Assembly (NCBI GenBank): GCA_002724245.1
Contig: PBOG01000092.1
Coordinates: forward strand, 14,393-65,107
Direction of reading: 5' to 3'
Length of the DNA stretch: 50,715 nt
DNA from: Planctomycetaceae bacterium
Lineage (GTDB): Bacteria > Planctomycetota > Planctomycetia > Pirellulales > Pirellulaceae
Positions 24,417 to 44,055 of the stretch are shown here, in pieces; position 1 is the stretch's first letter; every line of letters begins with the position of its first letter. A program made the position numbers and the translations under genes. The notes beneath the pieces were generated by a model. That model worked only from the letters and a program-made list of their open reading frames with translations, was not told where the DNA came from and ran no database searches.

Positions 24417-24553
24417 GCTACGGAACCAGCCACGTCCTGGCCACGGAGCATCTGCCGTATCGCGAGCGCGGCGCAGAGATCAAGTGTCAGGGGAAACTTT
24501 CGGCGGGCTGTCACCGAGCGGACAGTCGCCCGATACCGCGAGGCAGACCTGCG

Positions 24554-27373: not shown

Positions 27374-27463
27374 GGTCATGGAAAGTTGCACGACCGGTTG
27401 CCCAGGGAATCCGTCCGAAATGTTGACAGAGATGGTGGCGACATCCCCTTGAGGAGATCTGCG

Positions 27464-27760
27464 ATGACCGATCCGATGTTGATTGTGACTGTTGTTTTGG
27501 GATTGCCGGGTAGTTTGTTGTTGCTCTTTGGAGGTGGGCTGTTACTGCGTTCCTGGTGGCGTGGTCAGCCCATATCGCGTTTCGTCGCCGTCAGTCTGGC
27601 CGTGGGCATCACGAGCACGCTGGGGGCGGGCTTGGCTCTGAGCACCGTCGCCTCCAGGCCGCACGAAAAAACAGATCATGAAAAAGCGATGGACGAGAAA
27701 GCGGAGGACGTGCTCCAAGTCGACTTGGATCTGGGGGGCTTGGACGACCTGGACCCCTGA
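27464..27760 (+). CDS. Small two-helix membrane protein
   Basis: A GAGGAG 7 bases before ATG 27464 makes this start firm. The 98-residue protein has two hydrophobic segments (MLIVTVVLGLPGSLLLLFGG, and VSLAVGITSTLGAGLALS), a short basic loop between them, and a polar, acidic C-terminal tail (EKAMDEKAEDVLQVDLDLGGL). It is probably an inner-membrane protein. I do not recognise the family. It lies 90 bp after the methylase on the same strand. Confidence 0.65.
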   Translation: MTDPMLIVTVVLGLPGSLLLLFGGGLLLRSWWRGQPISRFVAVSLAVGITSTLGAGLALSTVASRPHEKTDHEKAMDEKAEDVLQVDLDLGGLDDLDP

Positions 27761-27778
27761 TCGAGTCGGGATGGTGAC

Positions 27779-27815
27779 AAAAAAACGGCTGGATCGCCTG
27801 GTGGCGGCCCAGCCG
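27779..27815 (-). terminator. Rho-independent terminator of the Gfo/Idh gene
   Basis: On the minus strand a hairpin (outer stem CGGCTGG/CCAGCCG, inner stem CGCC/GGCG with a short loop, 27786-27815) is followed by seven T (27785-27779). It lies 32 bases after the stop of the minus-strand gene at 27847. Confidence 0.88.
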
Positions 27816-27846
27816 TAGTCGGTTGTTGCTTGCGCGCGTGGCGGGC

Positions 27847-29307
27847 TCAGACTTTTTCTGGAACCACGAATGGTTTGCGATAAGGCCGGCTGAGTAACGC
27901 ATTGGCCTGGTCATCGCCCTGGAAGCGTTCTGTCTTGGCGTCGAATTCGAGAACGCGTCCCAGCGTGTACTGGGTTTCCGCGAGGTCGACATCGACGGCC
28001 TTGAGATTGTCTTTGAGCGTGTCGAAGGCGGCCACCACCTGGGTATTGTCGCCCAGTGTTTTGGATTGTTTGTTGAAGGGCACCGGTTCTCCCAGGCGAT
28101 ACGAGATGTTGCCCAGATGACACAAGGCACTGGAGTAATGTCCGACCTGTGCATCGCAGTTGACATCGTCGGGGTTGCGGCTGCGGACCGCAGCGATGAA
28201 GCTGCCGAAGGGACCGCCGGGCGTGACGGTCGCCGGGTCTCCCTGAATGGTCTCTGGCTTGCCACCGTTCTTGGGATAGAACTTGCCCTCTGTGATTTTC
28301 ACCAGACCTTCAGTCGTATAGACCTCGTTGCTGACGTTGCGTGCCGGCGAGCCTTTTTTGCCAACCAGGCCACGCGTTTCAAACACCAACAAAGTGTCGT
28401 CGTACTCGTACACGCTGAGCTGCATGTTGGGGGTCTGGCCCTGATCAATCAGGTTCTCTTCACCGGGAATGAAACGACCACCGAGGCTCCAGATACGGTT
28501 GGGCATGGTCGCACCCTTGATCGCCCAGTGGGCCACATCCATTTCGTGCACGCCTTGATTTCCCGTGTCGCCGTTCCCGGTATCCCAGAACCAGTGCCAG
28601 TTGTAGTGCACTAGGTTGCCATGGAAATCCTGCTTCGGCGCGGGGCCCAGCCACAGGTTGAAGTCGAGATGCGACGGTGGCTTGCTGACCGGTTTGCTGC
28701 CGATACTCCAGCGTGGTTTGCAGCAGTAACCCTTGGAAACCAGGACCTTGCCGTATTTTTCCGCCTGAATGGCAGCCATCTGCTGGGCGCGACCCTGACT
28801 GCTACGTTGCTGGGTACCGTGTTGCACAATGCGATTGTACTTGCGAGCTGCTGCTGCCAGCTGGCCCCCTTCGAAGACATTGTGGCTGATCGGTTTCTCG
28901 ATGTAGGCATCCTTGCCCGCCTGGCAGGCCCAGACACCGATCAGGGAATGCCAGTGATTGCAGGTGGCGACCGAGACGGCATCCAGATTCTTGTCATCCA
29001 ACGCGACGCGAATATCTTGCACACACTGTGGCGTATTGCCACCGCGCGCTTTGACCGCTGAGGTGGCCGATTCAAACAGACTGCTATCCGGGTCGATCAG
29101 GTAGCTGACATCGACCTTGTCCATTTTGGAGTAATCGCCGTAATGCGATTTTCCGCGACCGTGAATCCCCGCGACACCAATACGGATGGTGTCATTGGCC
29201 CCCAGGACGTTCCCGGAAGCTTTGGTACCGCCAATGGTGAACAGTGGGAAAGCCGTACTGGCGGCAGCAGTCGTCTTGATGAACTTGCGACGATTGAATC
29301 TGGTCAT
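27847..29307 (-). CDS. Tat-exported Gfo/Idh/MocA-family oxidoreductase
   Basis: The 486-residue protein begins with a twin-arginine leader (RRKFIKTTAAASTAFPL), so it is probably exported folded to the periplasm. The Rossmann domain starts IRIGVAGIHGRGKSHYGDY; the EKP motif (AYIEKPISHNVFEG, about 130) carries the catalytic-site Lys; a C-terminal alpha/beta domain follows, with NWHWFWDTGNGDTGNQGVHEMDV. Family members oxidise or reduce sugars, inositols or related compounds with a tightly bound NAD(P). The GHWH-like ...CNHWHSLIG... segment is common in the planctomycete exported subgroup. It is monocistronic with a clear terminator. Substrate is unknown. Confidence 0.88.
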   Translation of the reverse strand: MTRFNRRKFIKTTAAASTAFPLFTIGGTKASGNVLGANDTIRIGVAGIHGRGKSHYGDYSKMDKVDVSYLIDPDSSLFESATSAVKARGGNTPQCVQDIRVALDDKNLDAVSVATCNHWHSLIGVWACQAGKDAYIEKPISHNVFEGGQLAAAARKYNRIVQHGTQQRSSQGRAQQMAAIQAEKYGKVLVSKGYCCKPRWSIGSKPVSKPPSHLDFNLWLGPAPKQDFHGNLVHYNWHWFWDTGNGDTGNQGVHEMDVAHWAIKGATMPNRIWSLGGRFIPGEENLIDQGQTPNMQLSVYEYDDTLLVFETRGLVGKKGSPARNVSNEVYTTEGLVKITEGKFYPKNGGKPETIQGDPATVTPGGPFGSFIAAVRSRNPDDVNCDAQVGHYSSALCHLGNISYRLGEPVPFNKQSKTLGDNTQVVAAFDTLKDNLKAVDVDLAETQYTLGRVLEFDAKTERFQGDDQANALLSRPYRKPFVVPEKV

Positions 29308-29540
29308 GGCTTACTCCTGGCCTCTGGGAAATGGCGTAGTGAGGGATCGAGAACAGCAATTCGCGTAAGACGGTGGTTCCAGAACGGTGGAACTGTACTG
29401 GTTCATCCGTGTCTGCCGGGGAAGATGAATCGCAGTTGTCAAGAACTGGCCGTTGCCCGGTTGGAGGAATCGACTGGGTCCATTACAACAAACCCCGATT
29501 TGGTTGTCCAGGAGATTCACGTTGTCAGGAGTGACTGCCT

Positions 29541-30080
29541 GTGGGACCCGCTGAAGAAGAGTCTCCAGAAGAGCCTGTTGAGATTGCCCTGGTGGGAGAT
29601 CTAACCGATCAGGAATCGGATATCACCGAAAAGCTGCTCTCCGTTCCGGCGGAAGGAGAGTGTGTGCTCTATTTCAATTCTCCCGGTGGTAGCGCTTATA
29701 CGGCGATTTCCTTGATGTCGGTTGTGCTGTTGCGTGGCCTGCAGGCGACGGGAATCGTGACGGGCGAGTGCTCCTCGGCGGCTCTCTGGCCTTTCGGCGC
29801 TTGCCAGCGGAGACTGGTGCACCCGGGAAGCGTACTGCTGTTCCATCCGATGAAATGGCAAAGTGAAGACCACGTTGGCCTGGCCGAAGCCGCCGAATGG
29901 TCGCGCCACTTCGGTTACCTGGAGGCCGATATGGACCAACGGTTGGCACAGCTGTTGGGGGTTTCCGATGCGCAGCTGCGCGAGTGGATGCAGCCAGGTC
30001 GTTACCTGACGGGACCTGAGCTGGTGGCCGCTGGCTGCGCGGAACTGGTGGACTTGCCGTTTCCGAAACCGGCCTCGTAA
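29541..30080 (+). CDS. Solitary ClpP-like serine protease homologue
   Basis: The start is GTG 29541, with AGGAG about 9 bases upstream. The 179-residue protein has a ClpP/crotonase-like fold: VEIALVGDLTDQ, then VLYFNSPGGSAYTAISLMSVV (the oxyanion GG is present), GECSSAALWPFGACQRRLVHPGSVLLFHPM, where Ser in CSSAAL and His in LFHPM align with the ClpP Ser and His. The Asp expected in the following helix (ClpP ...D..., before SAEEA) is not visible in MQPGRYLTGPELVAAGCAELVD. It is somewhat shorter than ClpP (about 195-200) and no ClpX/A gene is near. It may be a degenerate ClpP paralogue or a related peptidase. Confidence in the fold is good, in activity low. Confidence 0.7.
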   Translation: MGPAEEESPEEPVEIALVGDLTDQESDITEKLLSVPAEGECVLYFNSPGGSAYTAISLMSVVLLRGLQATGIVTGECSSAALWPFGACQRRLVHPGSVLLFHPMKWQSEDHVGLAEAAEWSRHFGYLEADMDQRLAQLLGVSDAQLREWMQPGRYLTGPELVAAGCAELVDLPFPKPAS

Positions 30081-30104
30081 GGAGGCGTCTGGCGCGGCGG
30101 TCAT

Positions 30105-31352
30105 CTACAACGCCGGTTGTTTGTGGAACTTCCCGTCTTTCATGATCATCACCAGCTTGTCCGGGTTGGTCAGCAGTGTGAGATCTTCCAGCGGATTGCC
30201 GTCGACCAGCAGCAGGTCGGCCAGGAAGCCGGGTCGGACTTGTCCCAGGTCGTCCGGGCGGTCCATAGCCTGTCCGCCGTCCCGTGTCATCGTCAACAGC
30301 GCTTCCAACGGTGAATAGTCGAGATAGTTGACGAAGTGGTCCAGGTCACGGGCGTTGGTGCCGTGGGGTGTCAGGCCGAAGCCGTAGTCACCGCCACCCA
30401 GGATGCGCACTCCACGTTTTCTCAGTTCGCCTACCACCTGGGCCGCGGAAGCCAGTTCTTCCCGGAATCCCATGGCCTGGACCTGCTCTTCGGTGAACCA
30501 GGCGGAGCCTTCGTAAGCAGCCACTACGGTGAAGCCGATGTTGGGGCTGATGAACACGTGTTCTTTGTGTTCTTCCAGCAGGTCGAGTGCCTCTTCGTCC
30601 GCGTAATTGGCGTGATAGATCACCTTCACTCCGTGGCGTACACAGCGTTTGACCGATTCCGCGCTGCGGGCATGGGCGCTCATCCGTTTGCCGTGCGCGT
30701 GCACGACTTCGGCCGCGGCGGCGACCTCGGCTTCACTCATCACGGTCGCCTGTGAACCGGCGTGTGGCACAAAACTGTCCCCGGAGACGACCAGCTTGAT
30801 GATGTCGACACCTTCACGGATCAGTTCGCGCGTGACCTGCCGGTACGCTTCGGGGCCATCGACCACCAGCGCCATCGACTCCACATGTGGCATGTGCAGC
30901 GTCCGCATGTCGCCCAGGCCACCCGTCACGGTCAACCAGGGGCTGGCCGCCAGCAATCGGGGACCGGGAATTTGCTCCGCTTCGATGGCATTACGAATGA
31001 CCACGTCCAAACGCGGTTTGGCGGCGGCCGCACTGATGCAACTGGTGATCCCATGGTCCAGATAAAGCCGGGCGTTGTGCATTGTCAGCAGTGTGTGTTC
31101 TTCGGGGGGAATCCGTCCCAGTGCTGCCAGATCGTCGGTGTTGTCGATGCTCAGATGGGCATGTGATTCCACCAGGCCGGGCATTAGCCAGCGCCCTTGT
31201 CCATCGAGGGTGGCCACTCCTGCGGCGTTGATCTCACCTGGTGTATTGGCCACCGCGGCGATCCGGGTATCCTCGATCAAGACCTCCCCGTGGAACGGTT
31301 CGGCGCCACTGCAGTCGATCACGTGCACGTTGGTCAAGAGCGTGCGGGTCAT
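30105..31352 (-). CDS. Amidohydrolase-family metal-dependent hydrolase
   Basis: The start is ATG 31352, with GGAG 10 bases upstream; a 132-residue upstream extension to 31748 is low-complexity and overlaps the next gene, so it is rejected. The 415-residue enzyme has the amidohydrolase barrel: LTNVHVIDCSG..GEVLIEDTRIAAV, the metal-binding HAH in PGLVESHAHL (about 65), Lys in IIKLVVSG (possible carboxylated Lys), HAR in MSAHARS, HANY, and Asp in GGGDYGFGLTPHGT. It then ends with GFLADLLLVDGNPLEDL. It is closest in layout to imidazolonepropionase-like and prolidase-like members of the family. The substrate is unknown. No signal peptide is seen. Confidence 0.85.
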   Translation of the reverse strand: MTRTLLTNVHVIDCSGAEPFHGEVLIEDTRIAAVANTPGEINAAGVATLDGQGRWLMPGLVESHAHLSIDNTDDLAALGRIPPEEHTLLTMHNARLYLDHGITSCISAAAAKPRLDVVIRNAIEAEQIPGPRLLAASPWLTVTGGLGDMRTLHMPHVESMALVVDGPEAYRQVTRELIREGVDIIKLVVSGDSFVPHAGSQATVMSEAEVAAAAEVVHAHGKRMSAHARSAESVKRCVRHGVKVIYHANYADEEALDLLEEHKEHVFISPNIGFTVVAAYEGSAWFTEEQVQAMGFREELASAAQVVGELRKRGVRILGGGDYGFGLTPHGTNARDLDHFVNYLDYSPLEALLTMTRDGGQAMDRPDDLGQVRPGFLADLLLVDGNPLEDLTLLTNPDKLVMIMKDGKFHKQPAL

Positions 31353-31654
31353 GCGATTGTTCTCCCTGGCCAGACCGGTGATTGGGGATTGTTCCAGACG
31401 CGCGCCAGCTAGACGCATGTCTGTCAGACTAACAGGCTCGCTGATTCGAGCGCTGCTGGCAAGTTGAGGAGGCTGATTCGGGGTGGCTTTTTGATTCTCG
31501 GCGCAGGTGGTGGAATCGGCTGGCTGTGGCCGCCATGGCGGTTGCGATTGCGTGCGGTGGAGATCAGAATGCCTTGCTGGCCGCACCTGCGCTTCGGTCC
31601 GTTCGGAGACGCTCGTCCCCGCGGCCGGTTTCTCGAGTCGAGGAGTTCGTACCC
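31353..31654. other. Divergent intergenic region
   Basis: These 302 bases separate the amidohydrolase and the Tat-exported isomerase genes, which are transcribed away from each other. I see no supported gene and no clear promoter. Confidence 0.4.
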
Positions 31655-32596
31655 ATGCATGTCTCCCAGTCCATGCACCTCCGCCAATGCAGCCGGCAGC
31701 GGCGCGATTTCCTGACCGCCTGTGGTAGCGTGGCGACGGGCCTGGCAACCTGGCAGCTGGCGGGCGAGTCCGCCCCGGCGATCGAGCCGATTGTCCGTAA
31801 TGGTCGCGCCAAATTCAAATTCAGCCTGGCTGCCTACAGTTACCGCAGCCTGCTCCAGGGCAAACCGGCCAAACTGACGCTTTCGGATTTTATTCGTGAT
31901 TGTGCGCAGCTGGGATTGGAAGGGACCGAGCTGACTTCCTACTATTTTCCCCAGAATCTGACGCTCGATTACTTGCGGCAGCTCAAGAGTGAGGCCTTCC
32001 GGCTGGGGCTGGATGTGTCGGGGACCGCGGTCGGTAACGATTTTGGCCACACCGACCCGGCGCGGCGCAAGCAGCAGATCGCCGACGTCAAACGCTGGAT
32101 TGATTACGCCGAAATCCTCTCGGCACCCGTGATCCGGATTTTTGCCGGACATGCCCAGCCAGGTTCTTCGCCGGCGGAGGCGCATCGCCTGATGGTCTCC
32201 GGGATCGAAGAGTGTTGTGATTACGCCGGTCAACACGGTGTCCATTTGGCGCTGGAGAACCACGGTGGACCGACCAGTACCGCCGATGGGTTGCTGGCTT
32301 TTGTCCGCGATGTCAAGAGTCCCTGGTTTGGGGTTAACATGGACACTGGGAATTTCCACAGCGACGACATCTATGGAGATCTGGCCCGGGTGGCACCTTA
32401 TACACTGAATGTCCAGGTCAAAGTGGTTGTTTCCGGGAGTGATGGCAAAAAGCGTCCGAGTGATTTCCGACAGCTGGCGAGACTGCTGACTGAGGCCGAT
32501 TACCGGGGCTACATCGTGCTCGAATATGAAGAAGCGGGTGATCCGCGTAAGGAATCGGCCCGTTTTCTGGACCAGTTGCGTCAGGCTTTTGCCTGA
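31655..32596 (+). CDS. Tat-exported sugar phosphate isomerase/epimerase-like TIM-barrel protein
   Basis: The start is ATG 31655, with AGGAG 9 bases upstream. The 313 residues open with a twin-arginine leader (RQRRDFLTACGSVATGLATW), so the protein is probably exported. The TIM barrel of the AP-endonuclease-2 family follows: FSLAAYSYRSLLQGK, LEGTELTSYYF, RIFAGHAQPGSS, HLALENHGGPTST (metal-site Glu), FGVNMDTGNFH and GYIVLEYEEAGDP (metal-site Glu near the end). Such proteins are often called sugar phosphate isomerase/epimerases, but an exported form is unlikely to see phosphorylated sugars, so the real substrate may be a free sugar or cyclitol. It ends in a hairpin at 32578-32599. Confidence 0.85.
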   Translation: MHVSQSMHLRQCSRQRRDFLTACGSVATGLATWQLAGESAPAIEPIVRNGRAKFKFSLAAYSYRSLLQGKPAKLTLSDFIRDCAQLGLEGTELTSYYFPQNLTLDYLRQLKSEAFRLGLDVSGTAVGNDFGHTDPARRKQQIADVKRWIDYAEILSAPVIRIFAGHAQPGSSPAEAHRLMVSGIEECCDYAGQHGVHLALENHGGPTSTADGLLAFVRDVKSPWFGVNMDTGNFHSDDIYGDLARVAPYTLNVQVKVVVSGSDGKKRPSDFRQLARLLTEADYRGYIVLEYEEAGDPRKESARFLDQLRQAFA

Positions 32597-32599
32597 CGC
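32578..32599 (+). other. Hairpin overlapping the isomerase stop codon
   Basis: A perfect 9-bp inverted repeat (GCGTCAGGC and GCCTGACGC) with a TTTT loop spans the end of the isomerase gene; the stop codon lies in the right arm. There is no T-run after it, so it is not a classical terminator. Confidence 0.55.
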
Positions 32600-32634
32600 G
32601 CAACCTGGCCCCATACCACACGTTGCGACACGCT

Positions 32635-32663
32635 TTGCTCCGGCGGGCGTAAACCCGTAAAAT
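32635..32663 (+). promoter_or_regulatory. Promoter of ssrA
   Basis: TTGCTC (32635-32640) and TAAAAT (32658-32663) are separated by 17 bases. This is a good sigma-70-type match. It lies about 70 bases before the mature tmRNA 5' end, leaving a leader to be removed by RNase P. Confidence 0.6.
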
Positions 32664-32732
32664 AGGGGTGGTGAACAGCTCAAGTCGGACTGACTCGACG
32701 GTCGAGTCAAAGACGAGAGAGCTGGTCGTACA

Positions 32733-33088
32733 GGGGGCGACCTGGTATCGACCGGATAGACGAAGGGTGAGTGGCGTGCCGTGGTTGGTCAGCTGGCCAC
32801 GTTAAAAGCTGACTACAACTTTATTTGCCGAGAATAATCTCGCATTGGCTGCCTAGTTAAAGGCGGCCCCGGCTGCGGGTTTTCGCCGGAGAGACCCAAA
32901 AGCCGGCCACAATTCCGGCTAGTTTCGAGTCATGTCGGGCACGCTCGAAGCGAAACTAAGTTTCCGACTGGTTGATCTGGAATCCTGTCGAGGGGAGTCC
33001 GGAAAGACGAGATTCAAATCATCGACTATGCACGTAGAAGCTGACTTGGAAGTATCGCGGGACGCGGGTTCGATTCCCGCCGCCTCCA
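32733..33088 (+). ncRNA. ssrA: Transfer-messenger RNA (tmRNA)
   Basis: The tRNA-like ends are clear: GGGGGCG at 32733-32739 pairs with CGCCTCC at 33081-33087, followed by the discriminator A at 33088, and the T arm contains GGTTCGATTCC (about 33068-33078). CCA is not encoded. In between, the tag reading frame is best read as GCC GAG AAT AAT CTC GCA TTG GCT GCC TAG at 32827-32856, giving AENNLALAA, with the usual ALAA-stop end that targets trapped proteins to proteases. The frame is open a few codons further upstream, so the first tag residue is inferred. This is a one-piece tmRNA. It rescues stalled ribosomes together with SmpB. A strong terminator follows. Confidence 0.96.
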
Positions 33089-33092
33089 CTGA

Positions 33093-33133
33093 AACGGCCA
33101 CTTGCGATTTGTCGCAAGCTGGCCGTTTTCTTT
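33093..33133 (+). terminator. Rho-independent terminator of ssrA
   Basis: A hairpin with outer arms ACGGCCA/TGGCCGT and inner arms TTGCGA/TCGCAA is followed by TTTTCTTT. It begins five bases after the tmRNA 3' end. Confidence 0.92.
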
Positions 33134-33449
33134 GACTTACCCATAATCACTTGCTTTCCCGAGTGTCTTGCCGTTCAATCAGGTCCAGCCAGAGGTTCAA
33201 TTAGCTGGATTTCTGGGTCCAATAAGACGCGAGTGGGCAGCTTCTGAGATTGCCATCAGCCAGGTCAGCAGGAAACGAACCCGGCAGCACACCCGGGGAA
33301 AGTCAGGTCAACGTAGCCATGCCAAGGGAGAGCGATTCGCGCTGCAGGGCAAGCGGTGGTGATTTCCTCGCGGGCCTGGCCCTGCAGACATGGACGACTG
33401 AGTGCAGCGTTTCGCAAGCAAGTGACACCGAACAGAATTGAGTGATGCG
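33134..33449. other. Intergenic gap after ssrA
   Basis: These 316 bases show no supported gene. Short open frames on both strands are basic or low in hydrophobic character and have no good ribosome binding site. Confidence 0.45.
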
Positions 33450-33719
33450 ATGTCTGACTCGACCAGGGAATTGTTGGAGACGACTAAAGACGTGCTGCTG
33501 CGATGCTGGATGTTCGGTTTCGTGCTGCTTGTCATTTCGCTGGGTGCCACCCTGCTCACGGGGAACCTGATCCATGATCTCCACGGCTCAATGTTCGGGC
33601 TGACAAATCACGAGCTTGATCTGATTTTCTATTGCCTCATGGGCATTCTGAAGTTGATCGTCATCGCCTGCTTCTTTATTCCGTGGTTGTCGATCAAGTT
33701 GGTCCTGAAGCAATCATGA
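33450..33719 (+). CDS. DUF6868-like small membrane protein
   Basis: The ATG at 33450 gives 89 residues (MSDSTRELLETTKDVLLRC...); a TTG at 33438 would add four. Two strongly hydrophobic segments (CWMFGFVLLVISLGATLLTG and LIFYCLMGILKLIVIACFFIPW) flank a polar part with HDLHGSMFGLTNHELDLIFY. This order, with H-x-x-H-G-x-x-F in the loop, resembles DUF6868 proteins. Such proteins are small, inner-membrane and of unknown role. There is no good ribosome binding site. Confidence 0.6.
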   Translation: MSDSTRELLETTKDVLLRCWMFGFVLLVISLGATLLTGNLIHDLHGSMFGLTNHELDLIFYCLMGILKLIVIACFFIPWLSIKLVLKQS

Positions 33720-34023
33720 CTGAAGTGACCTGCCCCCCTTAACCGCGATCAGTTCCATCCCAGCCTCCCCTCCGCCTCACTTGCAGTCAGCCCGCGTCTG
33801 GACTTCCGCGTTAGCCCGAACTGTGCCAGCAGGCTGCGGAAGTGCCCACACATATCAGCACTGCGTCGTAATCGTTGCCGACGCAGTCGGCATCGTTTCG
33901 GGGTGACAGGCAGGGGATATTGACTATGGTGGGGGCATTGCCGCAACTCGACAGTGCCCGATCAGAAGGTTGATCAGGACTTGGGTCCGATTTCAGCAGA
34001 ACCCTTAATAGGAGGAGAACTCT
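33720..34023. other. Intergenic gap before the GC-rich secreted protein
   Basis: These 304 bases hold no supported gene; short frames on both strands look like chance. The end contains the strong ribosome binding site AGGAGGAG of the next gene. Confidence 0.45.
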
Positions 34024-37000
34024 GTGAAGCACCTTCTCTGGCGAGTTTCAATCCCGATACCGCTGCATACACTCATCCTGGCCGGCGCCGCTCTCGCGGT
34101 CGCCGCTGACGGTGCGCCCGCGGCCGACGGCGTCTTGCTTGACGCCTGCGAAACACCGGACCGGTGGCACTCGGTCGGAAACCCCTACGGCAACGTCGAG
34201 CTGAGCACCGGTGACTTCGGCGCAAAGGAAGGCGGGAAATGCTTGCGCATGGGTTTCGGTGGCGGGCAAATTTCGTACGTTCGTTTCAGCACGCCTCATT
34301 CCTGGGGCGACAAGCGCCTGGCTTACCTCTCCTTCTGGTTGCGTGCCGAGAAGAAGGCGGAGGGCGACTGGAAGCTGCGCATTGAGACGGATTCCTCGGA
34401 CGGCGTGTTCACCATCAACCGGTTCATCGACCTGGATTTCGACGGGTGGCGGCGCGTGCGCCTGGCGCGCTCGGATTTCGAGTTCATCTATCGCCAGCCC
34501 GGCGCGCCGATCGATTGGGGCAAGGTCAACCGATTCACGTTTGGCCAGTTGGGCGGCGTCGGGATGCCGGATATCTACATTGACGACGTCCGTTTCGAGG
34601 CCGGCACGACGAACGCGGATGCGAAGGCCGCCGAGACGGTGGTTGTCAGTCGCTGCGAATCGGCCGACCAATGGGCGGTGACCGGCCTCGACGTCAGGGC
34701 GCTGCCGGGGTTTGCCGTGGAAGGGAAAAACGCCTTGCAGCTGGCGTACAAAGGTGTTGCCAAGGGGCGTCTCGCCAAGACGCTGGACGGCGAGCGAATT
34801 GGCCCGCATCACGCGCTCGCTTTCGGCCTCAGGGGGCCTGGGGTCTCCACCAAGGCACGCTTCACCGCGGTGCTTTCGACCCCGGCCGGCGGGCGCTTTG
34901 AAAAGACTGTGACCATCGCCGGCTTCGAGATGCGCCAAGACATTCTGTTCCCGAATGAGTTCCGTAAAATCCCCGCCGCTGACGGTGCCGTGCCAGCTTG
35001 GCAGGAGATCTCCGAAGTCGCCTTCTTGCTGGACAGCCCGAACGCCAACGAAGTCGGCGAGATTATCCTGGACAACGTCTACTTCAAGCGGATGGAGCCG
35101 GCGAAGCGCCGGGTCGTGCCCGACAAGAAGTTCTGGTGGTGGGACGGTGGTTACGACCCATTCTGCATGATGCACGCAGTCCACGCCGACTGGCCGCACC
35201 TGCAGTCCGACGCCCGCAGCGCTGTCCTCAAGTTCAGCGAGTTCCTGCTGTCGCCGTTGATGCCGTACACGATCTACCTGCATAACGACGGGCGCTACCG
35301 CTCCTTTCGCGTGACGATCACGGATTGGCAGACGAACGTCCAGAGGGTCCTCACGATCGACAGCCTCGCCAAGGGCGTGGTCAGTCGGGACCTCGTCGCG
35401 CCGGCAGAGGTCGGCACGCAGCTATTGAACGTCGATTGCCTTGATGCCGCCGGCCAGGTGGTGAAGCACTACCAGACGGGCACGATCGTGCTGGCCAAAC
35501 GCCTGAAGGAACCGGAGGGCGTGTGGGGTATGCACACGTTTGTCGGCGGCAAGGGCGCCAGTTGGCCACATCACCGACAAGTTATGCGCATCTTCCAGGC
35601 GGTCGGGGTCATGGTCATGCGCGAGCGCATCCCCTTCATCAAGGACCCGGCCTTTCAGGCCAGGTTAGTCGCCGGCTCGCAGGGACAGGTGGCGCGGATG
35701 GCAAAGGAGTTGGGCATCAAGGTCGTGACCAGCACCCACCTGCATTCGACCGGGAAACTATGGGCGAAGCACCGCGGCATCGCACCCGGCATGGAAGGCG
35801 AGATGGAGGCGACCATGGCTTCGATCACGAAGGCTTGGAAAGGGGTCATCGACAACTGGGAGATCGGCAACGAAGGCAACAGCGACGGTACCCTGGCTCC
35901 CTACGCCAAATCACTAGCGGTGCTCTACCGCGGCGCGAAGAAAGGGAACCCGCATTGTCAGGTCGGCATGGGCGGCGCGCACGTGCTGAACAACCCTAAG
36001 GCCTGGCAACTCGCCTTGTGGGAGACCGAGAAGGAGACCGGCGTACAGCTCCAGGATTTCCTCACCACGCATCTCTACCCCGGTCCCGCCAGTGTGGAGA
36101 GTTTACTTCGCCCCTGGGTCCGCTCGCTCGGCCCGGCGCTGGTCGAGAAAGGGATGATCATGACTGAGGGCGGCTGGGAGACCTTCCCGCTCAAAGACCA
36201 GGCGCTTATGCGTCAAGGCCTGCTGCCGGAAGGGTATTCCGGCGAACGAATCGTCCAGGACTGGTACGCGCGCTATGCGAACGTCATCCTCGGCGAACAC
36301 TTGGCAATGGGCGCCAAACTGAAAGGGGTCTGCTACTTCCTCGCCATGGGCGCGATGGGCGACTGGATGTTTGACGAAGGCCGAGACCTCTCCGGCGAGC
36401 TGCGCAACTCCGGGCTGTTCGCCGCGAAATGGAACGACCGCCAGATCACGGTGGGCCGCCCGATGATCTACACGCATAACACCATCGCGCGCCTGCTCAC
36501 CCATGAAGTCATGCCCGCCGCGGTCCCCGTCACCTACGACAAGGCCGTCGGCAAGGTCGAAAACTATGCTTTCCACCGGCCGGGCGAGACGGTTGTCGCT
36601 CTCTGGATCGGTGTCGGCACCGGCAGCCGGGCGGACGCGATCGAGGCGATCGTTGAGGTGCCCGCCGGCGCTGCCATCGCGTTGGCGGTGGATCTGAACG
36701 GCAACGAACGCGAACTGATCCCCGCCGGCAGGTTCGTGACCGTCAAGCTGCGCAAGGAATCACCGCAGTACCTGCGCTTCCTCGCCGGCGAGCGGGTGGA
36801 CGACGTCTTCGTCCAGGGGATGAGCGGGTATGATGCCGACTTCAAGGTCGCCGCCGGCGTGCCCGCGGCCAACGGCGCCATCATTGCCGGCGTCGCCGCC
36901 GACCGCAATCTGCCGACGCTCAGCGATGTGGTGCCGCTGCCGGATCGGCCGATGGTACTTGTCTCGCCGGCGCAACAGACCGTCTACGTTGTCGGCCAGT

Positions 37001-37053
37001 CCAACGCCGACGTGGTGAAGGCAACCGGGGTTCTCAAAGGGAGACGCAAGTGA
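34024..37053 (+). CDS. Secreted glycoside-hydrolase-like protein with carbohydrate-binding-like domains
   Basis: The start is GTG 34024, with AGGAGGAG 6 bases upstream. The 1009-residue protein has a signal peptide (IPLHTLILAGAALAVAADG). Two beta-sandwich domains resembling carbohydrate-binding modules follow: LLDACETPDRWHSVG...INRFIDLDFDGWRRVRL...IYIDDVRF (about 37-190) and VSRCESADQWAVTG...IILDNVYFKR (about 208-355). A clan GH-A-like TIM barrel comes after, with IDNWEIGNEGN (about 615; NE, likely acid/base Glu) and MIMTEGGWETF (about 710; likely nucleophile Glu). It ends with a beta domain. It is probably an exported polysaccharide hydrolase, of no GH family that I can assign. GC content and GC at third positions are far above the neighbours, which suggests transfer. 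Confidence 0.72.
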   Translation: MKHLLWRVSIPIPLHTLILAGAALAVAADGAPAADGVLLDACETPDRWHSVGNPYGNVELSTGDFGAKEGGKCLRMGFGGGQISYVRFSTPHSWGDKRLAYLSFWLRAEKKAEGDWKLRIETDSSDGVFTINRFIDLDFDGWRRVRLARSDFEFIYRQPGAPIDWGKVNRFTFGQLGGVGMPDIYIDDVRFEAGTTNADAKAAETVVVSRCESADQWAVTGLDVRALPGFAVEGKNALQLAYKGVAKGRLAKTLDGERIGPHHALAFGLRGPGVSTKARFTAVLSTPAGGRFEKTVTIAGFEMRQDILFPNEFRKIPAADGAVPAWQEISEVAFLLDSPNANEVGEIILDNVYFKRMEPAKRRVVPDKKFWWWDGGYDPFCMMHAVHADWPHLQSDARSAVLKFSEFLLSPLMPYTIYLHNDGRYRSFRVTITDWQTNVQRVLTIDSLAKGVVSRDLVAPAEVGTQLLNVDCLDAAGQVVKHYQTGTIVLAKRLKEPEGVWGMHTFVGGKGASWPHHRQVMRIFQAVGVMVMRERIPFIKDPAFQARLVAGSQGQVARMAKELGIKVVTSTHLHSTGKLWAKHRGIAPGMEGEMEATMASITKAWKGVIDNWEIGNEGNSDGTLAPYAKSLAVLYRGAKKGNPHCQVGMGGAHVLNNPKAWQLALWETEKETGVQLQDFLTTHLYPGPASVESLLRPWVRSLGPALVEKGMIMTEGGWETFPLKDQALMRQGLLPEGYSGERIVQDWYARYANVILGEHLAMGAKLKGVCYFLAMGAMGDWMFDEGRDLSGELRNSGLFAAKWNDRQITVGRPMIYTHNTIARLLTHEVMPAAVPVTYDKAVGKVENYAFHRPGETVVALWIGVGTGSRADAIEAIVEVPAGAAIALAVDLNGNERELIPAGRFVTVKLRKESPQYLRFLAGERVDDVFVQGMSGYDADFKVAAGVPAANGAIIAGVAADRNLPTLSDVVPLPDRPMVLVSPAQQTVYVVGQSNADVVKATGVLKGRRK

Positions 37054-37345
37054 AGGCAACCATTGCCACACGAGTCTGGTCAGCGAACTCCCTGGTCAGA
37101 CGTTTCTCAGCCACGGTCGGTCTCCTGGAACCACCCCAGTCTCCCCACCCCAGCCACGGCATTCAACGCCGTCGTATCGCTTAGAATGGATCCGTCAGTT
37201 CCGACGCCGGCAGTGTTTTCAATCCTCTGTGGCCCAGCCACAGCCACCTGCCGAACGCGGCAACGCTGGCATAGCAGTTCACGAAGTACCACTTTCTTAA
37301 GTGTATCTTCTGCCGGCTTTTTCTTCCGCTTGTGAGGTGAACGAA

Positions 37346-39493
37346 ATGCGACGCACGACATCAGACGCGATCCGAAGAACAACGACGGCAGCCACAGCGA
37401 CCTCTGTTTTCGTTTGCGTCATCGGTCTCTTCTTTCAGTGGCGTGCCGGTGGTGCGAACCTGGCAGCGCAGAATCCGTCACCGGTGTTGCTGCGGCACCC
37501 CTATCTGCAAAAAGGTACCAGCCACTCGATGGGGATTGCCTGGATGATCGATGATGATCGTCCGTGCACGGTCGAGTTCGGACGGACCCGTAAACTCGGC
37601 CGAGAGGTTGAGTCGTCCAAGTCGCGGCGGATGCACTTTGTTGAGCTTACCAACCTGAAACCGGATACGCGCTATTTTTACCGCATCCGCTGCGGGCACA
37701 ATTGGTTGACTCCGGATGACGAGTCGTATCACTTTCGAACACACGCAGTCGATTCGAATCGACCATTTTCGTTTGTGGTGCTGGGAGACAGCGGTTGGCC
37801 GGGAACCAATGATCAATGCCCGCTGGCCGATCTGCTGGTTGCGCTCAAACCGAAGCCGGATTTTATTATCCACACCGGCGATCTTTCCCAGCGGTGGGCT
37901 GTCGATGAGGCGGAATACGATCTGCTTACGTTTGGCGTATACCGCGACACGTTACGCAACACACCGTTCTATCCAACACAGGGGAACCACGATTGGGTTA
38001 CGGACTGGGAGCACAGCCTGGATCCGTTGTATCCTCGTTTCTTTAAGCCGGGCCGGTTGAAAAGTCAGTTGACCGAGCGGTTTGACATGCCCTTTTGGCG
38101 CGTGTTCCACAGCCATCGCGACAACGAGGCGGGCGACGTCGCGCCGTTCAGCTTTCGTTACGGCAACGCGGTCTTCGTTGGTGCAGGTGGCGGCGGCAAA
38201 GGGGCAGGGCAGACGCTGGCCGAAAAGCGGTTTGCACAGCAGGGCGTTACCTGGCGATTCTTTTACAGTCACTACTTCGGATTGTCGGGCAATGCCGTCC
38301 CCGGCGGCGATCTGAAGTGGGACCCACCTCTACCGAAATGCGACATGACCTTTCGCGGTCATATTCATGTCTATAGCCGATCTGCTCCCTACGGTCCGCA
38401 CCAGACTGTGGATATGCTGGTCGGGAGTTCCGGCGCGACGATTGGCAAGTCCTATTTTCAAGCGACCGTCAGCGCCGAGAATCCGCATGGTCTGCGGCCC
38501 GGCATCACCGAGTGGAATGAAAAATGTCCTCACCTGGTTCACATCCTGATTGACGGCTCGAAACTCACGCTCCGGTCTTACTATCCGGACGGCCTGGTGT
38601 TTGACTCGCTGGTCATTACCAAGTCTGGCGAAGAGAAGAAAGTGGTCGGTATGCGTTCGAGCCAGCATCCGGTGCACCCGGCGTGGCAACGCGGACTGAC
38701 GCCGTTAATGAAAAGACTTTGGGTTGATGAGAATCCGAAATGGCGTTCGCTGGGATCAGGCCTGTGGGATTACGTTGGCCGCGAACCGCTGGAACGCATT
38801 ACCCAGCCAATTCAGCGTCGCAGCCGTTACATTGAACCACGTTTTGTGTTACCGCGTCGCCCCAGCCACGCACCGCCCAAAGATTTGAAAGCAGCGCGAT
38901 CCGCGCTGGCGAAGCTGATGGATGTCCACTATCGACTGGGGCATCACGAATGGGATGACACGACCTTTGACTACTTCAACAACCGGTTCCGATATTTGTT
39001 CGGCAGTGGGGAAACCTCACTACCATGGTTGGTTCAACTGGTTCGAGACAAAGCACTGCCGATCAAACAACGACTCGGGGCGTTAGGGGGTTTGGGCCTA
39101 TTGGCTCGCCACTCCCAAGTCGCTCGCCGTCACCTTGCTGAGTTCTCCGCCAGTGACGATTTCAATTTGCGCTTCTCGGCTTGCATCATCCGCGCCTGTT
39201 GGCTTGGTGAACAGCGTGCGCTCGATGAACTGATCGGTTGGATGAAACGCGAGTCGGTGCGCAAGCCGCCCAATCCGCAATTTAACGTGAACGCTCCCGG
39301 CCATTACGGTAACCCCATCTTTGTTCTCAGAAGATTCACGTTTCCCACTTTGTTCGGTCTCGAAACCAAGAAGAACTGGGGAGAAATTCGCCCACCGATC
39401 AGCTATTGGATCAAGTTCTATGAAATGAACAAACATCGCCTGAGGTACGTCGCGACCGAACGCCGCTACCAAATTGTGAACGAAGGGAAGTGA
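37346..39493 (+). CDS. Purple-acid-phosphatase-like metallophosphoesterase
   Basis: The start is ATG 37346, with GAGGTGA 5 bases upstream. The 715 residues open with a hydrophobic export segment (SVFVCVIGLFFQW). An FN3-like domain follows (MGIAWMIDDDRPCTVEFG to DTRYFYRIRCG), then the phosphoesterase: VVLGDSGWPG (Asp), IIHTGDLSQRW (GD), TQGNHDW (GNHD), FYSHYFGLSG (His) and FRGHIHVYSRS (GHxH). All metal ligands of the metallophosphatase fold are present. The C-terminal 250 residues are a helical region of unknown kind. It probably releases phosphate from organic esters outside the cytoplasm. The EEP-family gene begins 6 bp after its stop. Confidence 0.88.
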   Translation: MRRTTSDAIRRTTTAATATSVFVCVIGLFFQWRAGGANLAAQNPSPVLLRHPYLQKGTSHSMGIAWMIDDDRPCTVEFGRTRKLGREVESSKSRRMHFVELTNLKPDTRYFYRIRCGHNWLTPDDESYHFRTHAVDSNRPFSFVVLGDSGWPGTNDQCPLADLLVALKPKPDFIIHTGDLSQRWAVDEAEYDLLTFGVYRDTLRNTPFYPTQGNHDWVTDWEHSLDPLYPRFFKPGRLKSQLTERFDMPFWRVFHSHRDNEAGDVAPFSFRYGNAVFVGAGGGGKGAGQTLAEKRFAQQGVTWRFFYSHYFGLSGNAVPGGDLKWDPPLPKCDMTFRGHIHVYSRSAPYGPHQTVDMLVGSSGATIGKSYFQATVSAENPHGLRPGITEWNEKCPHLVHILIDGSKLTLRSYYPDGLVFDSLVITKSGEEKKVVGMRSSQHPVHPAWQRGLTPLMKRLWVDENPKWRSLGSGLWDYVGREPLERITQPIQRRSRYIEPRFVLPRRPSHAPPKDLKAARSALAKLMDVHYRLGHHEWDDTTFDYFNNRFRYLFGSGETSLPWLVQLVRDKALPIKQRLGALGGLGLLARHSQVARRHLAEFSASDDFNLRFSACIIRACWLGEQRALDELIGWMKRESVRKPPNPQFNVNAPGHYGNPIFVLRRFTFPTLFGLETKKNWGEIRPPISYWIKFYEMNKHRLRYVATERRYQIVNEGK

Positions 39494-39499
39494 TAACCT

Positions 39500-40339
39500 A
39501 TGTTCTCCGGGCCACTCAAGATTCTCACGTTGAATCTCAACATCGACCGTCCTCATCCGGGAGGTGATCAGCTGGTGCGCGCCGAAGTCGAACGGCTGAA
39601 GCCTGATCTGATCTCATTTCAGGAAGCGCTCTGGCATGACGAGGAGGAGGATCAAGCTCGACAGATTCTAAGTGGGCTTTCGTATCAGGTCGTTCATCAA
39701 TTCGAACTTCAGACGCCGGACCGGCACTACGGCACGGCGATCGCCAGTCGATTTCCCATCGCTCGTTCAGATCTCTGCAAGTTGCCCAGTACGGCTCGCG
39801 GTCATGGTTTTCCACGGGCCCTGCAAGCGGCCGAGATCGATGTGCCCGCGCCGGTCGGCCCGGTGTTGCTGGTGAATCCCAAGCCGCACTTTGAGCCGAA
39901 TCTAGAATGGGAACGCGAGATGCAAGCCGTGGCCGTTGCAGATTACATCGAACGGAATGCCGATCCAAGTGGCTTTCCTCCACTGATCGCCAGTGATCTG
40001 GATGCGAGCCCCGATGCTTCTAGCATCCGATTTCTGACCGGTTTGCAATCACTTCACGGGCGGAGTACCTGCTTCATCGACGCCTGGATTGCCAGCGGCA
40101 ACACTGATCCAGGATATACCTGGTCGTCAAGGAACGAATTCACTCGTGAGTTGGCCGATCAGCACTTTGGATGCGAAGTGCATCGCCGTATCGACTACAT
40201 TCTGCTCGGCTCCCCGCTGTTGTACGACGGATTTGCGCGGGTCCAGCGGTGCGAAGTGGTTCTAGATCAGTCGCACGGCGGTGTGTGGGCCAGTGGTCAT
40301 TTTGGAGTCTATGCGGAGATCAAGGTAGCTCGCCAATAG
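39500..40339 (+). CDS. Endonuclease/exonuclease/phosphatase (EEP) family protein
   Basis: The ATG at 39500 is supported by AGGGAAG 10 bases upstream, inside the end of the upstream gene. The 279-residue protein has the EEP active-site set: LKILTLNLNID (Asn), LISFQEAL (Glu), YGTAIASRFPI, LIASDLDASPDA (Asp and Asp/Asn), RRIDYILLG (Asp) and SGHFGVYAEI (His). The fold hydrolyses phosphodiester or phosphomonoester bonds, for example in sphingomyelinases, inositol phosphatases and nucleases. No signal peptide is seen. It lies 6 bp after the purple-acid-phosphatase-like gene, so the two are co-transcribed, and a joint role in degrading phosphate esters is likely. Confidence 0.85.
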   Translation: MFSGPLKILTLNLNIDRPHPGGDQLVRAEVERLKPDLISFQEALWHDEEEDQARQILSGLSYQVVHQFELQTPDRHYGTAIASRFPIARSDLCKLPSTARGHGFPRALQAAEIDVPAPVGPVLLVNPKPHFEPNLEWEREMQAVAVADYIERNADPSGFPPLIASDLDASPDASSIRFLTGLQSLHGRSTCFIDAWIASGNTDPGYTWSSRNEFTRELADQHFGCEVHRRIDYILLGSPLLYDGFARVQRCEVVLDQSHGGVWASGHFGVYAEIKVARQ

Positions 40340-40516
40340 AGGGAAGTCTGTGATAGGTACGCTCGCCAGCAGTCGGCTTTCGGCGGTCCGGATGACGAGC
40401 ACATCAAAATGATCCGCTCACTCATCGTCCAGTGCCGTGATACTGCGAATGCGCTGAGGTGAATTTCACTGACTGCAGATTTACCGTATCAGCCTGCTCG
40501 CCCCACCCTGCTCTGC

Positions 40517-42262
40517 TCATGCCACCGGCAAATCGGTGCGGAGCGATTTGTCGGGCCCGCACTCTTTTCCCAGTTGCGCCGAATCGGGCGGCATTTCACC
40601 AGGCACTGGGGGCTGGGATGGTGTTTGAGGTTGATCCTGGAAGCCCTGCTGTGGGCTGGCCAAAGTTGATTCAAAAATATGTCCGAAGGCATTTTGGCGA
40701 ACTGAGCTGGACGTGCTGGCAGCCACTGGTGAATCAACGGCCAGGCCGGACTTGCCAATGATCTCGTTTGCGATGGCTTCAAGTTGCTCGAGATTCAAGG
40801 CGAATCTTTGGCGAAGTTGCTTATTGGTAAGCATGTCTTTCAGGCGACCGTTCGTTTCGCTGACGATGGGCATTTTGGTTGTATTTACGTAGCCACAAGC
40901 AGACGTCCCTGCTGTCGATGCGTGCCACCGGCGGAAGAACTCTTGCATGAAGTGGTTCAGCGCAGAAATTTGCTTGAGCCGCCCCCGGTTTTGCATATAC
41001 ATCGTCTGATGACACATGCGGTCGTGGAAAAAAATGAAGCCTGTGATTGACCAATAGATCATGTAATCCCACAAGATTTTCGCAGGCATCACGTTGGGAT
41101 TGCCAAACATCTGATATTGGTCCCGGTAGGCCGTCAGCGTGCCGTAGTAAAAACTCTTGAATATCTTGTCGTAAGAAAAAGCGCGTATGCGATGACCACG
41201 CCACGTCCTGTCTCGCCAAATCAAATCGACCAGAAAGGTATTCGCAAATGCGATGAAGTCACTTCCCGGTGAGTAAAACGGATCGTGGAAAAAGCCAGCT
41301 TCACCTGTGATGCCCCAACGATTTGCTGAAAAGACTTGTTTGCATTCGGTTGAATAGTGCTTGATGGCGTTGAAGTCCTGCAGTTCAGTCCTGTGTTCAC
41401 GAACGGCAGCGGCACATTGCGGCTCATGCTTCTCGAGCCAGGCCAACGCCTTCTCGAAAGAGTTATAATCCGAAAGTGAATGGAATTCTTCGGCGGCCAC
41501 AATACCCATGCTGGTCGAACCCGAAGCCAACGGGATCAGCCACACCCAATAGCCTGGGCCCATCAAGTGATTGGTGCTGTACCACCTGCCCGTCTTGTCC
41601 TGGTGTCCTTCGCTCCAAGCCGGATCGTCGCACCAATCGTCGACTTTGATTTGTTTTCCGAATCGAAACCAGGCCGCGTTTGCCGTGTGGGGCGATGATT
41701 TGTTCAAGCCAAGTTTGCGCTTCAAGAACGCGCGGCGGCCACTGGCGTCGACGACCCAATGACTATGAATCTGGCCGGGCATTTGGTTGATTTCGAATTC
41801 AACACGGTGGCGGCCCCATTTGCGGATGTTGACATCTTTGATTTGTGCTTCGTCAAGGAAGACGATCCCGCGCGCGCGGCAAAGATCGCCAAGATAGTTC
41901 TCAAAACGCCCGCGATCCAATTGATAGCTTGGGCAGGGACTATAACGTTGTCCACCAAGCTCCAGTCTCTGCTCAATGCGAGAGTTGTCTCCGTTGGGAA
42001 AGAAGAATCGTAGTCCCAATTTCGGCAGTTGGGACTCTGTGATGTGCTCCTCAAGGCCAAGGACTTCCCCGAAATAACGCGCGCCGACTTCGACCGTGGA
42101 CTCGCCTACCTTGTGGGCTGCTTCAGGGACTGGATGCTGGCGTTTTTCCAGGACGACAATCTTGCATGCGGGTAATTGTTGCTTCAACTGCAACGCAAAC
42201 GAAAGCCCCGCCAGTCCACCGCCGAGAACCGTCACATCCGATTTGGTTGGTAAGTTCTGCAT
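40517..42262 (-). CDS. Flavin-dependent halogenase-like oxidoreductase (second of two)
   Basis: The 581-residue protein has a [16 protein letters not shown]-binding motif at residue 13, VGESTVEVG near 53, and LPKLGLRFF near 80, whose Lys aligns with the catalytic Lys of flavin halogenases. It also has [13 protein letters not shown] (about 235), which matches the halogenase WxWxIP signature, and [12 protein letters not shown] (about 325), like the F-x-P-x-S-x-G region of phenol halogenases. The C-terminal 80 residues are a Pro/Gln/Ser-rich tail. It is about half identical by eye to its neighbour at 42415-44055. It is 152 bp downstream of that gene on the same strand. It probably halogenates a phenolic or other activated carbon of the PKS product. 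Oxidation without halogen is possible. Confidence 0.85.
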
Positions 42263-42414
42263 TCAGTAATCCGATTCGCTATCCGGCTCGGGAGTGGATT
42301 CGTGGAAGGAACGGGTTGAGGTCTGTGTACAGGCAAACGGATGCCATGCTTCAGGCTTGCGTGAGATGCTCATGTGACGCGGCACAGGGCAGCCATGCCA
42401 TGATCCTGAAAGGC

Positions 42415-44055
42415 TCAAATGTTTAACATGTCGAAGACGGGTGCAAGCCGTTGCTCGCGCGCTGGCTCCTGGCTGATGCTCGTGTCAATGTCGGTTAATG
42501 ATTCACGTACGCGACTGGTGATCTCTAGCATCAGCTCGCGAATCAAATCGACATTGCTGTCAAATCGTTTCCGTAGTGCTTCATCATCCAACCGCTCGGT
42601 CAGTTCCTGGTTCAATCGTGTCATGATTTCAATGTTGCTCTGGTCAACAAATGCCGGCACGGCGTTCACCTCTGGATCGGCCCGGTACCAATCGCGGAAA
42701 AAATCCTGCATCTTCAAGTTCATGTCGCGAATCTCTTCGACACCGCGCGACAAACTCTGAATGAAACCGGCGTCGGTCAATTTGTCATTGAAATACAACA
42801 ATGCCGGAAAACCCCAGTAAACCGCGTAATCCCAAACGAACTTGATCGCCATGATTCGCGGATTGCCAAACAGAGGGTATTGATCACGGTAAGTCAGCAA
42901 GTTGTTTTGAAACAGAGTCAGGAAAACGCTTTGCAACGTAGGGGCAAGATGTGTGATCGAATTGCCCGCCACATCTTCTTCGATCAATCTGCCGACCATG
43001 GTGTTGCCGATCGCGATGAAATCACTACCGGGAGAATAGAACGGATCGAGGAACGCGGCGGCTTCTCCTACCAGGCCCCAACGGTCGACCGAGAAGATTT
43101 GTTTCGACCCCATTGACATTTTCTTGATTGCGAGGAAATCCTGCATTTTGTCGACATGTGGCTCGATTGCGTGCGCACATTGCGGCTCGTGTTCACTGAG
43201 CCAGTCGAGCGACTTTTCAAAACTATTAAATGTGTTGAGTGGATGAATCCTTGGGTCGGCCACGATTCCGATACTTGTGGAACCCGTGGCCAATGGAATC
43301 AGCCAAACCCAATAGCCTTCACCCATCAAGTGGTTGGTGCTCAGCCAACGGCGCGGCACCTTGCCGGTGAGTTGTTGCCAGTCAGTATCTTCACACCAAC
43401 CATCAATCTGGATTTGGGCGTCGATGCGAAACCAGGTTGCGTTGATGTCGTGTCCGAGGTCTTCGTCGAGGTTCAACTTGCGTCGAATAAAGGCCGCCCG
43501 ACCGCTGGCGTCAACGATCCATTTCGAGGTGATCTTCTGCAGCGAATCATCACGCAAGAAAGTGATTTGATGATTCGTTTCTTTTGTTCCGTTGTCAGAG
43601 GAATCGAGTATGACTTCGCGCACCTGCGTACCGTCAAAAATCGTGGCTCCAGCCTCGGTATCGGCTTTCGCCAGATGATTTTCCAGGCGTCCCCGATCGA
43701 CCTGATAACTTGGCGCGGAAAAAAAAGTGCTGCCGCCAACTTCAGTACCTTCTGACAAGGATTGAAAGGCATCCTTGAAAAAAAAACGCAGCCCAAATTT
43801 TGGTAGCTGATGGTCGATCAAGTGTTTCTTGAGACCAAGTCGTTCACCAAAATAGTGCGCTCCAATCTCCACCGTCGACTCGCCGACTTTATGGGTTGTT
43901 TCGGAAACGGGAAACACCTGTTTTTCGGTGATGGCAATCTTAAGGTCAGGATGCTTGCGCAGTAGTTGTCGCGCGAGAGTGAGTCCGGCCAGGCCGCCAC
44001 CCAGTATGGCGACGTCAAAATGGTCTGTCGTGTGTTTTTTGTTTTCGGTGATCAC
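42415..44055 (-). CDS. Flavin-dependent halogenase-like oxidoreductase (first of two)
   Basis: The 546-residue protein starts at GTG 44055, overlapping the PKS stop codon by four bases (GTGA). It has [16 protein letters not shown] (FAD), VGESTVEIGAHYFG, LPKFGLRFFF (Lys in the halogenase position), [19 protein letters not shown] (WxWxIP), and [14 protein letters not shown]. The product is most like the phenol or pyrrole halogenase branch (no Glu of tryptophan halogenases seen in the last motif). Translational coupling to the PKS argues that it acts on the polyketide. Motifs support halogenase fold; the actual reaction is inferred. Confidence 0.87.
   Translation of the reverse strand: MITENKKHTTDHFDVAILGGGLAGLTLARQLLRKHPDLKIAITEKQVFPVSETTHKVGESTVEIGAHYFGERLGLKKHLIDHQLPKFGLRFFFKDAFQSLSEGTEVGGSTFFSAPSYQVDRGRLENHLAKADTEAGATIFDGTQVREVILDSSDNGTKETNHQITFLRDDSLQKITSKWIVDASGRAAFIRRKLNLDEDLGHDINATWFRIDAQIQIDGWCEDTDWQQLTGKVPRRWLSTNHLMGEGYWVWLIPLATGSTSIGIVADPRIHPLNTFNSFEKSLDWLSEHEPQCAHAIEPHVDKMQDFLAIKKMSMGSKQIFSVDRWGLVGEAAAFLDPFYSPGSDFIAIGNTMVGRLIEEDVAGNSITHLAPTLQSVFLTLFQNNLLTYRDQYPLFGNPRIMAIKFVWDYAVYWGFPALLYFNDKLTDAGFIQSLSRGVEEIRDMNLKMQDFFRDWYRADPEVNAVPAFVDQSNIEIMTRLNQELTERLDDEALRKRFDSNVDLIRELMLEITSRVRESLTDIDTSISQEPAREQRLAPVFDMLNI

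Follow-up and report, generated by a model that had tools for sequence, protein, structure and literature searches.

The window, the whole stretch of 50,715 nucleotides that was analysed (G000:C87:14393-65107), reaches the end of its contig at its right edge (50715) and belongs to a draft genome of 287 contigs with 3.29% contamination. The gene under study (the target) lies past the tmRNA gene ssrA, with an intergenic repeat element on each side, and the features of the locus and of the encoded protein are as follows:

32733..33089 (+): tmRNA gene ssrA, with the tag AENNLALAA (ARAGORN; Rfam RF00023, E 1.1e-68)
33067-33090 (+): presumed attachment site at the ssrA 3' end (synteny with the congener G001 stops at 33090)
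33438..33719 (+): gene for a small membrane protein of 93 aa, DUF6868 (PF21742, E 1.5e-9)
33763..33900 (no strand): 138-bp intergenic element common to the genus (90% to G001:C83; shorter 75% matches, G001:C89, C263)
34010..34017 (+): ribosome-binding site AGGAGGAG, read from the sequence, 6 nt ahead of GTG
34024..37053 (+): gene for a 1009-aa secreted glycoside-hydrolase-like protein (ORF call and composition; the ORF is real)
34024..34131 (+): residues 1-36, signal-peptide-like (by eye)
34132..34611 (+): residues 37-196, binding-module-like segment D1 (weak; no Pfam or PDB match)
34630..35103 (+): residues 203-360, binding-module-like segment D2 (marginal repeat of D1; no Pfam or PDB match)
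35116..35499 (+): residues 365-492, middle domain (Ig-like by eye; no homologue found)
35500..36528 (+): residues 493-835, predicted (beta/alpha)8 barrel, clan GH-A type (hhalign; strand and helix order in a weak AlphaFold model)
35869..35874 (+): N616-E617, predicted acid/base (invariant in the alignment)
36166..36168 (+): E715, predicted nucleophile (invariant in the alignment)
36529..37050 (+): residues 836-1009, C-terminal part (mostly beta structure, as seen in weak models; no homologue found)
37132..37167 (no strand): 36-bp dispersed intergenic repeat (copies on four other contigs of the same genome and two of G001)

The ORF starts with GTG and, from a search of its own genome, is present there in a single copy. 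An initial annotation of this DNA had placed it between gaps without supported genes, which does not hold, as the upstream gap contains both ssrA and the DUF6868 gene. The compositional part of that annotation fared better. The GC content of the gene is 63.8% against 56.7% for the window, and the count of 42 G or C among the 60 nucleotides at 36601-36660 was exact upon recounting. In a reference set of 146 ORFs of at least 300 aa, drawn from 350 kb of the same genome (the window plus 20 stretches), GC3 has a mean of 0.608 (sd 0.064); the target, at about 0.825 (0.824 in the gene-by-gene count; z 3.4), ranks first of the 146 and is followed by ORFs at 0.787, 0.779, and 0.757. Its codon-usage distance to the other ORFs (0.441) is likewise the largest of the 146, ahead of 0.423, and when only the 29 ORFs of 700 aa or more are compared the runners-up are at 0.375 and 0.274. 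The target is a compositional outlier to which a few other ORFs come close in GC3, and the GC3 of the genes adjoining it is ordinary. Hence the excess of G and C over the neighbours and at third positions is real, and codon usage, whose uniformity would speak against a foreign origin, is not uniform, the target being first in both measures.

The protein begins with a signal-like stretch (by eye), in agreement with its description as secreted. The two binding-module-like domains that had been proposed ahead of the barrel have thin support: residues 65-193 show a 30% match to a secreted multi-domain protein (L030), which has CBM96 and laminin-G domains, but elsewhere than in the matched part; D2 repeats D1 marginally, with 6 of 1000 shuffles reaching the score; and the two segments end in YIDDVRF- and ILDNVYF-like motifs of a kind present in jelly-roll binding modules. 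However, no Pfam model (CBM models included) matched residues 1-369 up to E 1, D1 and D2 found no match in the PDB, and D1 alone as the query recovered only its own locus at E 0.01, which leaves the modules unproven. From the sequence, two binding-module-like domains appear plausible but weak.

The barrel could be placed with the aid of A6, a coherent family of nine secreted GH39-like relatives of about 600 aa (L002, L008-L011, L013-L016; motif WE[VI]WNEGN) from planctomycete records and one Phragmitibacter record. In hhalign comparisons with A6, the target barrel reached a probability of 94.9% (E 4.5e-8) and the whole protein 93.6% (E 2.1e-7, residues 601-879 aligned), while residues 37-360, 365-492, and 831-1009 gave 0.2%, 0.1%, and 0.9%; the controls gave at most 1.7% for 100 shuffles, 0.75% for the reversed sequence, and 0.3% for the window's own sugar-isomerase barrel. 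The A6 profile in turn matches the GH39 structure 5jvk (E 1e-10; a GH39 enzyme by its title, from Bacteroides cellulosilyticus), GH10 xylanases, and PslG, which we take to be filed under GH39. Six residues (R533, N616, E617, H683, Y685, and E715), which we take to be those of clan GH-A, are invariant in the alignment with GH39-like proteins. Both the NE (IGNEG, E617) and the TE (TEGGW, E715) that had been named as catalytic are present and aligned with the catalytic pair of these proteins. The AlphaFold model is weak (pLDDT 41) and alternates between strands and helices, E617 following strand 4 and E715 following strand 7; by the alignment and this weak model, the target carries the predicted N-E acid/base and nucleophile glutamate at the positions that define clan GH-A. 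The best PDB match of the weak model is 5jvk, at a TM-score of only 0.28, and a full-length single-sequence structure model is weak as well (pLDDT 33.5). As judged from sequence comparison, the barrel is a distant homologue of GH39-like secreted proteins, and this homology together with the retained E617 and E715 supports the clan GH-A type suggested in the initial annotation.

No Pfam, NCBIfam, or PHROG model accepts the target and PDB sequences gave no meaningful match, which is consistent with the earlier remark that the family was not a recognised one. Neither PF01229 (GH39) nor PF00331 (GH10) matched the target up to E 10. Pfam matches to Ribosomal_S11 and Flavi_M were weak, below cut-off, and were discarded. 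In the two A6 members tested (L002 and L008), GH39 and GH10 Pfam matches were also below cut-off, and one relative (L004) passes the PF00331 cut-off (24.7 vs 22.1 bits). We conclude that the target is of clan GH-A type, closest to GH39, and outside GH39 and GH10 by their Pfam models. Most likely it is a clan GH-A glycosidase of the retaining kind that belongs to none of the families tested, with activity and mechanism as predictions.

We then considered the distribution of relatives, using genome sets that overlap. Besides the target itself, no full-length relative was found in 392 genomes of the phylum at E 1e-6, nor in the other 240 genomes of the family at E 0.01; the five matches in the 241 family genomes comprised the target, three barrel-only proteins, and one judged to be noise. 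The L007 match (residues 851-992, E 0.006) was rejected as noise, as it runs on the opposite strand to an ORF of 937 aa that looks cytochrome-like by eye. At E 0.001, 2 of 246 genomes (phylum of G651) and 8 of 347 (class of G645) matched over short stretches only. None of 387 genomes from the phylum of a Verrucomicrobiota record matched at E 1e-5, a set without a positive genome, for which an empty answer shows nothing. An alignment-guided pattern scan of genome contigs yielded eight genomes with distant barrel-only relatives, no close relative was confirmed by 8-mer patterns in genome or viral contigs, and tblastn against plasmids and phages returned no close relative. Among the papers that literature searches brought up, none names the protein in its title or abstract opening. 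As no close relative of the whole protein was found, the gene looks acquired. Relatives from the same order with shared synteny would argue against foreignness, and none with shared synteny was found.

Mobile DNA frequently inserts at tmRNA genes. A tmRNA match at E 0.001 was present in 167 of the 170 family genomes of at least 90% completeness, 144 of them above cut-off, and 20 ssrA loci were chosen from the 170 genomes for their long contigs; one (L126) ends 300 bases past ssrA, leaving 19, and another (L129) is cut at 6.7 kb. The target was absent from the 19 loci at E 1e-5. Of the window genes downstream of ssrA, the only match in the 20 loci was a weak one of a metallophosphatase (28.8%, L130), and two window genes upstream of ssrA match weakly (27% in L137, 20% in L128). 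Recombinases, transposases, or integrase remnants occur within about 5.6 kb downstream of ssrA in at least 8 of the 19 loci, a count made without a random-locus control and to be read as a lower bound because the Pfam test was applied to 20 of the 54 ORFs that reach 200 aa within 4.5 kb, and to 19 of the 20 loci. Four of the eight loci have, respectively, a PF00589 integrase (L140), a recombinase of resolvase type (L142), an rve transposase (L124), and a broken integrase recognised by tblastn (L130, E 1e-26). The other four have mutually homologous proteins of about 600 aa (L128:3612-5453, L133:3487-5349, and L135:3551-5320, all +; L141:10841-12820, -), which are the first ORF of at least 200 aa past ssrA in these 4 of the 19 loci. 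They have no Pfam recombinase match, and of the two compared with PHROGs, that of L128 has a weak integrase match (E 0.035) and that of L135 a weak DNA-binding match only; by eye, they look like degenerate tyrosine recombinases. The region downstream of ssrA is variable across the family.

Among congeners, window 24123-33090 is collinear in pieces with G001:C111 (68-79% DNA identity), and window 23958-31881 with G002:C47 (85%) up to the end of that contig; the flanking orthologues are up to 85% identical. A Type IIG restriction enzyme-methyltransferase (window 24500-27370; Type_ISP_C, PADLOC E 8e-109) has a 68% DNA match in G001. On G001:C111 the homology does not extend beyond 33090, precisely the 3' end of ssrA. 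There, ssrA is followed on the opposite strand by a tyrosine recombinase gene (L056:8702-10216, -; PF00589, E 9.7e-20) whose C-terminal reading frame overlaps the tmRNA 3' end. Since the break falls at an integrase of G001's own, it does not by itself show an insertion in the genome studied here. The better argument for transfer is the absence of 33091-42300 from both congeners: a DNA search with 31000-42300 found only short dispersed repeats beyond 33090 in G001 and G002, whose completeness (81% and 82%) implies that both assemblies would lack a given locus in about 3% of cases, if gaps are random.

The ssrA gene at one end of the region is an intact tmRNA, as in ssrA islands. Six recombinases used as queries found no relative in 33110-50715, and the window holds no second ssrA 3' end that could serve as an att repeat. 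With neither of these before the contig end, an ssrA genomic island in this genome is putative, and its far end may lie outside the contig, which ends at 50715. Towards the contig end (window 40517-50651) lie two genes resembling FAD-dependent halogenases (PF04820) and, by eye, a large ORF of polyketide-synthase type; together they probably form a natural-product cluster within this variable region. Elsewhere in the genome, the ssrA 3' end recurs (at most 2 mismatches) only once, where it closes a second tmRNA gene on C75 (L066:2791-3150, -; tag ANKQFALAA). Immediately downstream of that gene is what by eye looks like the C-terminal remnant of an integrase; this tmRNA is either cargo of a mobile element or contamination. 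G001 has a further, identical copy of the ssrA 3' end on C89 (L057:3405-3427), a contig on which no tmRNA was found; this copy is possibly the far end of an island there.

We consider it reasonably probable that the target encodes a glycoside hydrolase of clan GH-A type that is secreted and modular, and that it was acquired into the variable region past ssrA from a lineage of higher GC3. The protein would be exported and its N-terminal modules would keep it attached to a polysaccharide, where the (beta/alpha)8 barrel may hydrolyse a glycosidic bond in the two steps of a retaining mechanism, E617 serving as acid/base and E715 as nucleophile. The gene would have arrived by transfer at a site where integrases act in related genomes, the donor being a lineage with higher GC3. 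We infer the activity, the retaining mechanism, the binding role of the modules, and the transfer event from the features described above. Conceivably, the barrel could instead be catalytically dead, the protein having a secreted sugar-binding or structural role; its activity is predicted only and no family model accepts it, but both carboxylates and the other clan residues are retained, and we regard a dead protein as improbable.

As to origin, the claim that the gene is foreign stands in its compositional part and in the absence from relatives, but no donor was found and the flanks are neither empty nor foreign; the case for foreignness is therefore built on the composition of the gene, its position, and its absence from relatives. 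An old native gene, lost in the relatives and raised in GC3 by local mutation or selection with no transfer, would fit the native-type repeats on both sides, the GC3 of up to 0.787 in other ORFs of the genome, the lack of a donor in any search, and a window without integrase or att repeat. Such a history is rather unlikely in our estimate, as it has to accommodate the lack of a full-length relative in 240 other genomes of the family (E 0.01) or 391 others of the phylum (E 1e-6), the first rank of the target among 146 ORFs for both GC3 and codon distance, and the ordinary GC3 of the adjoining genes. The repeats also bear on an assembly chimera, in which the contig right of ssrA would come from another organism. 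The fragmented draft with its measurable contamination, and a synteny break that sits at a conserved sequence, are what a chimera could produce; yet repeats known from other contigs of the same genome or of G001 flank the gene on both sides, and most of the right part has a GC content near the genome-sample average. Genus-type repeats on both flanks favour an odd gene embedded in DNA of the genus over a contig of chimeric origin, and we regard a chimera as highly improbable. An integron cassette array, raised by the same repeats, was dropped since they are dispersed over contigs.

In essence, the target is an unusual orphan enzyme gene within an ordinary kind of integration region. To go further, and assert that it founds a new clan GH-A family with new N-terminal binding modules and is cargo of elements at the ssrA 3' end in planctomycetes from an unsampled donor lineage, is a speculation that we offer only tentatively. 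A large secreted orphan beside an integration site that varies across the family suggests that part of a hidden sugar-degrading repertoire arrives as mobile cargo, and the target is itself a predicted enzyme candidate. For one planctomycete, Paludisphaera borealis, many putative glycosidases are reported to lack a family assignment (PMC5352709).

Compared with known proteins, the A6 family shares the clan residues and the barrel with the target (residues 601-879 aligned), but at about 21-24% identity, with unlike N- and C-terminal parts and no full-length match. GH39 proteins such as 5jvk and PslG are linked to it by barrel homology through an intermediate profile and by the NE and E positions, whereas the target has no PF01229 match at E 10 and no direct PDB sequence match, and bears extra N-terminal segments. 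A 1110-aa secreted protein of G026 (L004:2772-6104) resembles the target in its long N-terminal part ahead of a GH-A barrel (31% identity over 124 residues), although at useful scores the match is limited to the barrel. As for the site, ssrA is known to harbour genomic islands (Islander, PMC4383910), and the vcr islands of Dehalococcoides carry genes of odd codon bias downstream of ssrA (PMC3146451). Unlike such islands, the present region shows no integrase or displaced ssrA fragment before the contig end; what it has in common with them is strain-specific DNA of odd codon bias directly past ssrA.
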